The notes under the pieces: model-generated | Database searches by the model: none | The model's input: only the letters and a program-made list of their open reading frames with translations | Told to the model about the DNA's origin: nothing | Made by a program: the position numbers and the translations under genes | Virus record (IMG/VR): IMGVR_UViG_3300005581_000114 | Coordinates: 1 to 25,626 of that record | Strand: one strand, 5' to 3' | Source: a virus | DNA: 25,626 nucleotides | Part shown: positions 4,222 through 11,295 of the stretch, in pieces | How positions within the stretch are numbered: position 1 is the stretch's first letter | How the letters are laid out: each line of letters begins with the position of its first letter

Positions 4222-4454
4222 CCCTGCCCCCTCAAAACGCCGCTGCCACTCGGAAGCATCCGCGTTGAATAAACCTTATCTTCCTTCACCCATGTCCCGC
4301 ACGGATCGACCGGACCTGCTGCAATCTTCTCAGCGAGGATCTCGGCCTGTATCCGCTTTTGCTCTGCGATCTCTTCCGCGCTTGGATACTCCTGCGGAAA
4401 GTATCGGCCCGTTGTGTTCAATTTTGCGTCTGCCCGCTTAGTCGATCCTGTCAT
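4218..4454 (-). CDS. Small hypothetical protein
   Basis: A 78-residue charged protein with a helical, Glu/Lys/Ala-rich centre (AEEIAEQKRIQAEILAEKIA, about residues 26-45). It overlaps csrA upstream and the RuvC-like gene downstream by ATGA. No domain or membrane segment is seen. Real by context; function unknown. Confidence 0.6.
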   Translation of the reverse strand: MTGSTKRADAKLNTTGRYFPQEYPSAEEIAEQKRIQAEILAEKIAAGPVDPCGTWVKEDKVYSTRMLPSGSGVLRGQG

Positions 4455-4720
4455 GATTTCCTCCGCATCAGTTCGCCTGGGAGTCGTTCGCCAATTCGGA
4501 TCACTGGCACGAGCGGAGCAATCGGAAACGCCTCCGGATTGAAGCCAGTTTCCTGAATCGCGTCGTGAATCTCCTTGCGATCAATCCGCACGTTCTTAGA
4601 TGCTGTAAAGCCGAACCGTGCGTGGTTAGTTCCGATGGTGTCAACCAGCTTGACGACGATCGTTTCCTCTCCGACCGTGATGATAATTTCTTCTGATACG
4701 GCACGTCTGAGCACTAGCAT
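4451..4720 (-). CDS. csrA: CsrA-family RNA-binding translational regulator, phage-encoded
   Basis: An 89-residue protein whose first 55 residues follow CsrA/RsmA closely: MLVLRRAVSEEIIITVGEET, then strands ending in the signature VRIDRKEIHDAI. L4, R6 and R48 stand where CsrA has L4, R6 and R44, the residues that contact RNA. CsrA dimers bind GGA motifs in mRNA leaders and block or promote translation. Compared with the usual 60-70 residues it has a short insertion (TIGTNHARFGF region) and a 30-residue C-terminal tail ending in Arg/Lys. The start has AAAGGA about 9 bases upstream, itself part of an ANGGA-type CsrA site, so self-repression is possible. A highly structured leader lies just upstream. 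It may control phage or host mRNAs; the targets are unknown. Confidence 0.85.
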   Translation of the reverse strand: MLVLRRAVSEEIIITVGEETIVVKLVDTIGTNHARFGFTASKNVRIDRKEIHDAIQETGFNPEAFPIAPLVPVIRIGERLPGELMRRKS

Positions 4721-4746
4721 TTTGAAGTCCTTTCATTGAGTAAAAA

Positions 4747-4806
4747 CCTGCGAACAGTCTCGGCATGACTGCTAAGAATGCCGAACCCTTGGTGACTGTT
4801 CGCAGG
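4747..4806 (-). terminator. Nested stem-loop followed by TTTTT, 26 bp before csrA
   Basis: A perfect 12-bp outer stem (CCTGCGAACAGT with ACTGTTCGCAGG) encloses a 7-bp inner stem (TCGGCAT with ATGCCGA at 4760-4766/4778-4784). The two are separated by one base on one side and ten on the other. On the minus strand it is followed at once by TTTTTA, so it can act as an intrinsic terminator or attenuator before csrA. It could also be the 3' end of a small RNA. Confidence 0.6.
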
Positions 4807-4814
4807 AGTACAAT

Positions 4815-4888
4815 TCAGAGCCTGCTGGCCTTCATTGGCTTGCGGGGGCCAGCCGTTGAAAATCATTTTTCAATGCAGCAGGCTCTGA
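4815..4888. ncRNA. Candidate structured RNA element: three-way junction
   Basis: A perfect 13-bp outer stem (TCAGAGCCTGCTG at 4815-4827 with its complement at 4876-4888) encloses two hairpins: a GC-rich one (CTGGCC/GGCCAG, 4825-4852, with alternative pairings) and TTGAAAA-TCAT-TTTTCAA at 4856-4873. It lies between the 46-residue membrane-protein gene and csrA and contains no plausible gene. Strand is not certain; the minus strand is expected from the operon. Pairing is seen; being an RNA element is inferred. Confidence 0.45.
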
Positions 4889-4899
4889 GGGAGTAAAAT

Positions 4900-4923
4900 C
4901 CGGTGAACCCTCGCTCTCGCCGG
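4900..4923. other. Third small hairpin of the csrA leader
   Basis: CCGGTGA pairs with TCGCCGG (7 bp including one G-T wobble, 10-base loop), directly after the stop of the membrane-protein gene on the minus strand. With the two larger structures it fills almost all of the 4721-4923 interval. Each structure is bordered by an AGTA on the plus strand. Confidence 0.3.
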
Positions 4924-5064
4924 TTAGTAAGTTGGTGGGTAGTTGTCTCTCGCCCACTTGTTGCCACGCCTGATCTGGCTTCGCTCGTCAGCGAGTTGCG
5001 ATGATCCAGCCGCAAACCACGCCAACACGATCAGTAACGCCGTTGCGATAATTTCATTGAGCAT
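4924..5064 (-). CDS. 46-residue single-span membrane protein
   Basis: A small gene with a strong ribosome site (AAAGGAG, 8 bases before ATG at 5064) and an 11-base overlap with the upstream gene. Residues 4-19 form a hydrophobic helix (EIIATALLIVLAWFAAG), followed by a charged 26-residue tail (ADERSQIRRGNKWARD) ending in PPTY. It is likely anchored in the inner membrane with a short soluble tail. It does not resemble a full holin and has no lipobox Cys. It could be an early host-takeover, exclusion or lysis-timing peptide; the sequence does not decide. Confidence 0.6.
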   Translation of the reverse strand: MLNEIIATALLIVLAWFAAGSSQLADERSQIRRGNKWARDNYPPTY

Positions 5065-8797: not shown

Positions 8798-8942
8798 GAT
8801 TTGCGTTCTCCGTTAATCTGGCAAGGTCATTTTTCCACGACTGTACCGCATGATCTCCGCTGGCTGCCGCAAACTCAGACCATCCATGCACAATAAACTG
8901 TGCGACAACAGCCAGAAACAAAACGCCGATCAGTCGTAACAT
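8790..8942 (-). CDS. 50-residue single-span membrane protein
   Basis: ATG at 8942 overlaps the stop of the large Cys-rich gene by one base (TGATG), and its TGA lies inside the start of the next gene. Residues 1-18 form a hydrophobic helix (MLRLIGVLFLAVVAQFIV), followed by a charged soluble tail (SWKNDLARLTENANRE). No lipobox Cys is present. Its late-operon position after the tail genes is where small lysis proteins (holin, spanin) often lie, but one span and 50 residues do not decide. It fills what would otherwise be a 144-bp gap. Confidence 0.6.
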   Translation of the reverse strand: MLRLIGVLFLAVVAQFIVHGWSEFAAASGDHAVQSWKNDLARLTENANRE

Positions 8943-10858
8943 CAGCAGTTGCTTTCCAGTTCGTAGACCGTCACATCTGAAATCTGATACCCAAAAGGAT
9001 TGCCCGACGTAAATCCGTCGATGACATCCAAAATCGCAGGGCAGTCACACGTCACAGTGTACGCGAGCTGATACCACGTTGTGGGAGTGTCGCCCTCTAG
9101 CCACCGGTAGTATATGCAATAAGTGCATCCGATACACTCGCAAACAAGGATCACCTCTAACGTGTCCTCGCGCGTTCCGCCCATTGGCAGCGGAAATGTT
9201 CCAGAGACGCTGCCACGATATCCGGGGAACGCACTAGGTGACCACGGCTCGCAACTGATTCCATCTTCGTCCTGCATTCCGTAGTAGAGCAAAAACTCTC
9301 TAGCCGCCGAGCCATGCGTGCCGTTGCCTGATGACCAAAGCAGTCGCAATGTTTCGCCCATGGGACGACCGCAGATGCAATCACCGATTATGGGAGGTAT
9401 TTCCTCGCAGTCACACTGCTTGCATCTGACCTCAATCAGGTCGCCATTCGGCAGCGTTACGCTAGCCGACAAATCCGCACAGCCGGTGACTGCAACTGGC
9501 TCCTGCTCCTCGCCGTCAGCGGTCAGCGTGATAACACACTCACCAGTGTACTGATCTCGGCCCAGCGCAATCGACAGATCGTAATAGCCGACCGTGCCTT
9601 CCCAGACCGGCGGATCACAAGGATATGATGTATCGCAAATCTCACCCGCGACAATATCGCCGCTGTACGGAGTAATTGTCACGCACAAGCAATCACACGA
9701 GCACCGGCAATCCCCGCAAAAAAAATCATTGCAGCCCGTGTCAGGATCAACAATCAACGCCAATTCTCGTGGCTCGTGCTTGCTCCAGCTCAACGTGCCT
9801 TCGAGATATGCCGTCGCCACTGCCACCGTGCCGCTCGGATCTCGGCAGCTTGCCCCCTCGTAGCAGTTCGCGCGATAAACTTCCTCGTCGTCAAGAGTGA
9901 CGATGTACTCGCATTCGCCGAACTGAGGTATCGGGGACCGAACCATCACAACCCGAAAGCCGATGTCGTTTCGTTTCGTCGTTTCGGCAATCAGCGTGCG
10001 GCTTGCTGATCTGCATTCCGCAGCAGTAGAATTCCAGCCGCCACCGCGAATGACCTGATCACCGGCAGAACCGTCTGCTCTTGAGTTTTGCGCCCACTCC
10101 CAGACGTTGCCGTGAGCGTCGACAAGGCCCTGAGCATTAGCCGGTTTGCCGCCCACATCGTGAGTTTCTGCCGCGCTGTTTGTAACAAACCAACCATTGT
10201 CTGGAAGGTCCGCAGAATTTGCCCCGAAGTTGTAGGCTGTCGTTGTTCCAGCTCGGCAAGCAAACTCCCATTCCGCTTCCGTTGGCAGCCGATAGGACCG
10301 TCCCATTAGGATTTCAGCAGGCAACGCCGACAACGCCGTGCAAAATGCCTGAGCATCCGCGTAAGACACTTTTTCAACTGGCCTGCCGCTGCCGCTAAAA
10401 TGACTTGGACTCAATCCTCGCACAGTTAGGTACTGCGATTGCGTGACCTCAGTTGTACCGATCACGAATTCATCGACACTTGTTGAGACCTCAGTTTCGT
10501 CGGCATCTCGCCCGGTTTCCGATCCGGGGCTGCCCATCGTGTATGTGCCTGCTTCGATCAGGGCGAACGGCATCCCGATCGAATTGCTACTGACTGGCGG
10601 AGTGATGTCCGGGAGGATTTCGCGTTCCCAGTACGATACAAACGCATGGCCGCCAACCGTGCCTGTCCATGATGTTCCGGCGAATGTCGCTGAACCGTAG
10701 GAGATGCCGTCTCCGTAGGTCTCCCATTCAAGACAAAGCTTGCAGGGCAACGTTCCGCAGCATTGATCAGCCGGAGCCGTGTCGCAAGTTTCAACCGTGA
10801 ATTCTGCACAAGGTTTCAGTCGCGTTGGCGATGCTTTGCGAAGATAACGCGGAGGCAT
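8942..10858 (-). CDS. Cys-rich virion protein with inserted FGE-sulfatase (formylglycine-generating enzyme fold) domain
   Basis: A 638-residue protein, probably a tail fibre, baseplate or receptor-binding protein. Residues 95-306 are an FGE-sulfatase domain: IEAGTYTMGS, TTEVTQSQY, PVEKVSYADAQAFC, YRLPTEAEWEFACR, DAHGNVWEW, VIRGGGWNS and DIGFRVV occur in family order. Of the two Cys of true FGE only C282 is present; the first is S277, so oxidase activity is unlikely and binding is more likely. FGE folds serve as receptor-binding lectin domains in some phages. Around it lie three Cys-rich repeats (each with a W/Y-x-G-x-V motif at 64, 419, 547 and clusters such as CGDCRCSCDCLC). The FGE domain interrupts the first repeat. 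I chose ATG at 10858 (TGATG overlap) over an upstream reading that covers the previous gene. Confidence 0.75.
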   Translation of the reverse strand: MPPRYLRKASPTRLKPCAEFTVETCDTAPADQCCGTLPCKLCLEWETYGDGISYGSATFAGTSWTGTVGGHAFVSYWEREILPDITPPVSSNSIGMPFALIEAGTYTMGSPGSETGRDADETEVSTSVDEFVIGTTEVTQSQYLTVRGLSPSHFSGSGRPVEKVSYADAQAFCTALSALPAEILMGRSYRLPTEAEWEFACRAGTTTAYNFGANSADLPDNGWFVTNSAAETHDVGGKPANAQGLVDAHGNVWEWAQNSRADGSAGDQVIRGGGWNSTAAECRSASRTLIAETTKRNDIGFRVVMVRSPIPQFGECEYIVTLDDEEVYRANCYEGASCRDPSGTVAVATAYLEGTLSWSKHEPRELALIVDPDTGCNDFFCGDCRCSCDCLCVTITPYSGDIVAGEICDTSYPCDPPVWEGTVGYYDLSIALGRDQYTGECVITLTADGEEQEPVAVTGCADLSASVTLPNGDLIEVRCKQCDCEEIPPIIGDCICGRPMGETLRLLWSSGNGTHGSAAREFLLYYGMQDEDGISCEPWSPSAFPGYRGSVSGTFPLPMGGTREDTLEVILVCECIGCTYCIYYRWLEGDTPTTWYQLAYTVTCDCPAILDVIDGFTSGNPFGYQISDVTVYELESNC

Positions 10859-11295
10859 CAGTCGCACTCCGGCTGGGCACAAAGGTCGTCGATGATCCAT
10901 TTTGGCGTACACGCACCGGTTAGCGGGTACATGTAGGTGGCTCGGCCTGTCGTTCCAACCAAGTCCTGCGGAGTCAATCCGTAAAGGTAATTGCAGATGT
11001 CGTAGACATAATAATCGCCACCATATTCCGCCCCCGGTGGCGTGCCAGTGCAGCTCAGATTGTACCACGTCGCAGTGGCCACCAGCGTCGTTTCGGAAAC
11101 GTAGTCAGTTTCAGGGCAAAGAACATCGGTGATTGTAAACCAGATTGTGTGCCCGCCGCCCGAACCTCCGCCTTCTCGTTGCTGCCAACGCCCTCGCACC
11201 TGAGCGGGATTCATCATTCGACGCATAACCTCACGAGCAATCTTTTTGTATTGCTCTGCGCCTTTTGCGTCGAATCCAACTACAGGATCTGACAT
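10858..11295 (-). CDS. Hypothetical tail or baseplate protein
   Basis: A 145-residue protein directly upstream of the FGE-domain protein, overlapping it by one base. A charged helical start (AEQYKKIAREVMRRMM) and a Gly-rich hinge (EGGGSGGGH) precede a beta-rich, Tyr/Thr-rich C-terminal part with five scattered Cys. The Cys and Tyr content resembles the repeats of its neighbour, suggesting the two assemble together at the tail tip. No known family is recognised. Confidence 0.65.
   Translation of the reverse strand: MSDPVVGFDAKGAEQYKKIAREVMRRMMNPAQVRGRWQQREGGGSGGGHTIWFTITDVLCPETDYVSETTLVATATWYNLSCTGTPPGAEYGGDYYVYDICNYLYGLTPQDLVGTTGRATYMYPLTGACTPKWIIDDLCAQPECD

Follow-up and report, generated by a model that had tools for sequence, protein, structure and literature searches.

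Exchangeable, covarying RNA modules form a mosaic leader in front of csrA in a group of metagenomic phages

The PeSL cassettes of T4-type phages are promoter-stem-loop elements that lie at gene borders where genes exchange. T4 also encodes stable RNAs, and in other phage RNA clusters tRNAs and stable RNAs are released from the transcript and act in trans. The phage non-coding RNAs GOLLD and ROOL lie near tRNA islands (PMC12286853). A csrA gene is carried by 30 phages (PMC7366521) and by phage JC1 (PMC9144972), CsrA sites are typically a GGA displayed by a hairpin loop, and the csrA of E. coli is subject to translational autoregulation (PMC7652899). The csrA leaders described here resemble each of these systems in part. 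Like PeSL cassettes, they carry stem-loops that mark gene borders with phage gene exchange, but they have no recognised sigma-70-like promoter, fall into several unrelated fold families and are tied to csrA. As in phage RNA and tRNA islands, structured RNAs of no known function stand beside tRNA-like elements, but the csrA-leader modules measure 27-76 nt and not hundreds, have no Rfam match and are found directly before csrA. With intrinsic-terminator attenuators they share a G+C-rich hairpin with an immediately adjoining U-tract, read in the sense direction ahead of a gene; unlike these, they are intercistronic, with large (60-75 nt), branched hairpins and exchangeable module families. They share with csrA autoregulation and the CsrB/CsrC sponges (PMC7652899) the partner gene and, possibly, a GGA-loop hairpin at the csrA ribosome site. 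Finally, the phages reported earlier likewise carry csrA, but the available excerpts of those reports (PMC7366521, PMC9144972) describe no structured leader.

The 25.6-kb stretch of viral DNA analysed here (the window) encodes a genuine CsrA on the minus strand, as are the neighbouring genes. Three folds on the minus strand, termed A, C and D (Table 1), lie in the gap between csrA, which starts at 4720, and the stop codon (4924) of a 46-aa gene upstream, confirming the structured leader proposed in a preliminary description of this DNA. The csrA start is located about 26 nt past module D. The AGTA motifs noted beside the folds are present and read TACT on the sense strand. The linker TTTTACTC occurs twice in the window, both times within the csrA leader (0.37 copies expected; 5 out of 100 shuffles reach two). 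A leader peptide was rejected: homologues do not preserve the single 50-aa sense frame (4714-4866), and the lengths of their modules vary by 1-2 nt.

Table 1 Features of the csrA leader in the window, listed from the upstream gene towards csrA.
Feature	Position	Strand	Remark
Module A, small hairpin	4898-4924	minus	overlaps stop codon of upstream gene
Linker TTTTACTC joining modules A and C	4891-4898	minus	
Module C, 13-bp stem closing a junction	4815-4888	minus	
Linker ATTGTACT joining modules C and D	4807-4814	minus	
Module D, 13-bp stem enclosing a 7-bp hairpin, terminator-like	4747-4806	minus	
U-tract UUUUU, directly 3' of the D stem	4742-4746	minus	
Possible CsrA site, hairpin UGAA[AGGAC]UUCA on the csrA Shine-Dalgarno sequence	4723-4735	minus	function inferred
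csrA	4451-4720	minus	PF02599, E = 2.4e-10

Two perfect 13-bp inverted repeats, 4747-4759/4794-4806 in D and 4815-4827/4876-4888 in C, are the longest of the window when arms within 150 nt are considered. The second is the junction-closing stem seen previously, while the nested stem of D keeps its nested form and measures 13+7 bp instead of 12+7. The 7-bp hairpin placed at 4900-4923 is indeed a hairpin, although homologues favour two 4-bp stems with an internal loop over a single stem. Out of 200 dinucleotide shuffles of the 241-nt region none folded as well on either strand (z = -4.5 sense, -5.9 antisense), in line with the earlier view that such arms are unlikely by chance. Compensatory change in homologous leaders had been named as the check to make, and two-sided pairing changes were found there. 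It is consequently hardly credible that these are chance or purely DNA-level inverted repeats: only the smallness of the region speaks for this, against the shuffles and against homologues in which pairing is kept through two-sided change, with G-U on one strand only. Because both strands outfold all shuffles, fold energy alone cannot assign the strand. However, when the stems of D and C are read in the csrA sense, G-U occurs in 25 cells and A-C in only 3, counts made over related and thus not independent sequences, and the RNA is therefore on the csrA-sense strand. Elsewhere in the window, at a border between two genes (11216-11275), lies an inverted repeat of 26 nt, imperfect (73%) and with a loop of 8 nt.

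Homologous leaders were collected from IMG/VR with a csrA protein search, four DNA-pattern searches and a later search on another csrA subfamily. They come from several dozen contigs, all metagenomic and many fragmentary, and some loci are one contig fetched twice. The exact-pattern searches (C core, E core, D stem) favour conserved cores and so account for part of the conservation seen there; modules F, G and H are known from few sequences, and the covariation results concern A, C and D. Besides the order A-C-D of the window we found A-B-C-D, A-E-D, A-B-E-D, B-C-D, A-B-C, A-C-D-H, A-F-C-D, A-B-G-D and C alone. The three hairpins first described are real folds but do not make up one element: interchangeable modules give the leader a mosaic build. 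Some leaders also hold tRNA-like elements, and in some, genes are inserted between modules. In two loci (L063:6348-6415, plus strand; L054:191-258, minus strand) an element among the modules before csrA matches the Rfam tRNA family (RF00005, 48.7 bits) and was missed by ARAGORN; its anticodon loop is short by four nucleotides, and this tRNA without anticodon could be a decoy or a relic. Other cloverleaf-like elements, which ARAGORN and the Rfam gathering scores reject, occur in six further loci (L012, L013, L015, L034, L060 and L070), either ahead of the modules or interspersed with them; they contain sequences resembling a T arm, for example TTGGTTCAAATCCAA or GCAGGTGCAATTCCTGC.

The leaders are linked to csrA even though the CsrA proteins behind them are only 27-85% identical to that of the window. 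Wherever it could be read, the gene behind D is csrA, with the exception of one contig (L065/L083). On that contig an HNH-like gene sits between a D+H leader and csrA. C and D are essentially single-copy, each found at one place per virus record searched, which rules out a genome-wide dispersed repeat; the D model gave one weak extra match in G003 and one in G010 that corresponds to module H, whose weak score suggests that it may be a relative of D. The window and locus L002 have A, D and csrA in common (99% over 596 nt), with C between A and D in the former and E in the latter. Locus L059 is 99% identical to L002 as far as the csrA start, beyond which it has the csrA of the L055 group. A whole csrA allele has been swapped here within nearly identical flanks, the left exchange point being the csrA start. 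Divergent CsrA proteins also have a common C-terminal tail, RIGERLPGELMRRK, which is absent from the L052 and L055 groups; 3'-end recombination or a shared function are suggested alternatives. The exchange of C for E between common A and D, and of csrA directly behind D, raises the idea that the hairpins are chiefly short common sequences for phage gene exchange, similar to PeSL. We regard this as quite improbable, as it leaves the compensatory changes, the G-U bias of the sense strand, the U-tract and the csrA linkage unexplained, and recombination would be a by-product of shared conserved sequence.

In the outer stem of module D, compared among 23 distinct sequences, 299 out of 299 cells are paired. 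Both sides have changed in 6 of the 13 pairs and in 16 cells, whereas shuffles average 3.1 (not one of 500 is as high) and slid partners give 0-3; three pairs of the inner stem also show two-sided changes. All 29 distinct leaders in which D abuts csrA have a U-tract behind it, with a weighted score of 2.9 or more and a mean of 4.0; this count is not independent of the T-run, which doubled as criterion for orienting the near-palindromic D. From the end of the D stem to the start codon of csrA there are 25-39 nt, or 95-97 nt where H intervenes. D thus has the stable hairpin followed by a U-tract on the transcribed strand that defines an intrinsic terminator. With a d'Aubenton Carafa-type score, the D of the window reaches +6.2 and the H adjoining csrA in L063 +24.3; the opposite strand gives -55 for D and -65 for C, and modules that have further modules behind them (C and A of the window, E of L002) range from -31 to -48. 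The U-tract of C was compared between csrA-abutting and other positions, and the values overlap (three cases). T-counts for C and H in which both strands of the palindromes are mixed do not enter these results. Judged from these features D is terminator-like, and termination would take place at its U-tract. On the other side, scores are negative (-5 to -10) for D' variants and for leaders whose last module is C, and the anti-terminator partner that a switch needs was not found as a conserved alternative fold among the relatives. One candidate, pairing of the D loop repeat AGCAGUC with the 3' arm, is absent from L065, L069 and the D' forms.

Modules A and C are separate folds upstream of D. Module A, present in 33 viral stretches, consists of an outer CCGG/CCGG and an inner GAGC/GUUC stem separated by an internal loop and capped by a GAGG tetraloop (usually AAGG). 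Its inner stem covaries in relatives (GAGC/GCTC, GATC/GATC, GTTC/GAAC, GCGC/GTGC and GGGC/GTCC) around the AAGG-like loop. In module C the 13-bp stem closes a junction holding a hairpin P2, with a 7-nt-type loop, and a short hairpin P3. Over 16 distinct sequences 97.8% of cells are paired, with two-sided changes in 7 pairs (15 cells), which none of 500 shuffles matches. The core CGGCUGGCCCCCGCAAGCC..AAGGC is strongly conserved together with P3; the search with the exact core imposes part of this conservation, although csrA-based searches recovered the same core. Even inside the core, L003 and L064 differ exactly at both sides of one P3 pair (G-C to U-A). Covariance-model matches to C score 80-110 bits in the sense direction and 17-27 on the other strand (104.5 vs 21.5 bits for the C of the window). 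C therefore shows covarying stems around a conserved unpaired core, as expected of a riboswitch-type RNA.

A search of the leader for sigma-70-like sites gave none, and the modules begin at the upstream stop codon, both of which fit read-through from the upstream genes. With little room for a promoter in the linkers, this led us to favour an attenuator read from upstream. The csrA of these phages is probably controlled through the leader RNA. We tentatively propose, at a likelihood just short of probable, an intercistronic attenuator or partial terminator preceded by interchangeable modules of separate function. The leader would be an intercistronic RNA in the csrA sense, assembled from exchangeable folded modules, in which the module nearest to csrA (D in the window, but C or H in some relatives) would form a strong hairpin with a U-tract near the ribosome site and, as a partial intrinsic terminator, would gate how far transcription continues into csrA and the genes that follow. 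The modules further upstream, in the window A and C, would be independent folds with a role in tuning termination or in binding a partner, or would be processed out of this transcript. Other phage promoter types may however lie within the modules, which counts against this scheme. Genes are inserted between A and the remaining modules, which argues that A at least is not integral to one switch. The preliminary description had offered an attenuator, a small RNA or a protein-binding element; this is partly borne out, the attenuator reading gaining support from the conserved csrA-proximal U-tract and its near-constant spacing.

The main rival, although rather unlikely, is a small-RNA array, in which the modules would be freed from the transcript as stable RNAs at the U-rich TACTC linkers and act in trans, with D ending the array and csrA merely the next gene. 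The linkers are conserved, the modules tolerate genes inserted between them, tRNA-like elements (one a tRNA without anticodon) occur in the same island, and the near-invariant C core with its covarying stems is reminiscent of trans-acting or ligand-binding RNAs. Such an array leaves the strict linkage to divergent csrA alleles unexplained, and it fits poorly with leaders that consist of C alone 20-30 nt before csrA (L023 and L024).

In addition to attenuation, CsrA may block its own translation at the ribosome-binding site, which can fold as a hairpin with GGA in its loop. The stem around GGA is kept in most related csrA leaders, with changed stems in a few. This feedback is only a suggestion, since AGGA serves equally as the Shine-Dalgarno sequence and about 10% of shuffles produce stems of 4 bp. 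A wider role of CsrA, with the module loops binding the protein as a CsrB/RsmZ-type sponge in cis, would suit the partner gene, the possible GGA-loop hairpin at the ribosome site, the AAGGAAU of module E and the AAGG loop of module A. We consider it very unlikely: a sponge carries several conserved GGA motifs in hairpin loops, whereas A, C and D of the window family have no conserved unpaired GGA and the AAGG-like stretch of D varies freely. Both the sponge and the recombination joints explain less than the attenuator or the small-RNA array.

Database searches agree with the earlier impression that no known family matches. Rfam returned nothing for the leader at gathering or loose thresholds, the best loose matches being eukaryotic miRNA models far under the cut-off, and ARAGORN found no tRNA. 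The C core had no exact match in 84,980 species genomes, where no close csrA relative was detected either, and no homologous leader was found in 50,697 phage records and 72,556 plasmids at the sensitivities used; the csrA of the window had no match among the same phage records. Relatives found with the terminase are all below 60% identity and spread over many hosts, and so point to no single host. A large virion-region protein of the window (8942-11068) contains, by eye, a candidate formylglycine-generating-enzyme-like stretch, which would suit a sulfatase-rich host, e.g. among the Planctomycetes. The D model found no match in more distant csrA phages. In an exploratory comparison with uncurated control ORFs, 6 out of 25 distant phage csrA genes had a hairpin and U-run just upstream, against 20 of 313 controls (p = 0.007). 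In L107, L113 and L114, unrelated phage csrA genes stand directly behind terminator-like hairpins.

In all, these leaders add several covarying RNA families without Rfam match and clearly exemplify leader RNAs that are modular and exchangeable yet tied to a single regulator gene. The conserved terminator-like leader gives a concrete handle on the timing of phage CsrA production. A bolder, improbable extension of the attenuator is that each module, above all C with its invariant core, represents a new RNA class, sensing or protein-binding, and tunes csrA attenuation to a different host or infection signal, so that phages would retune csrA by swapping modules. If the modules are sensors, module swapping would be a new phage route to rewire a regulator.
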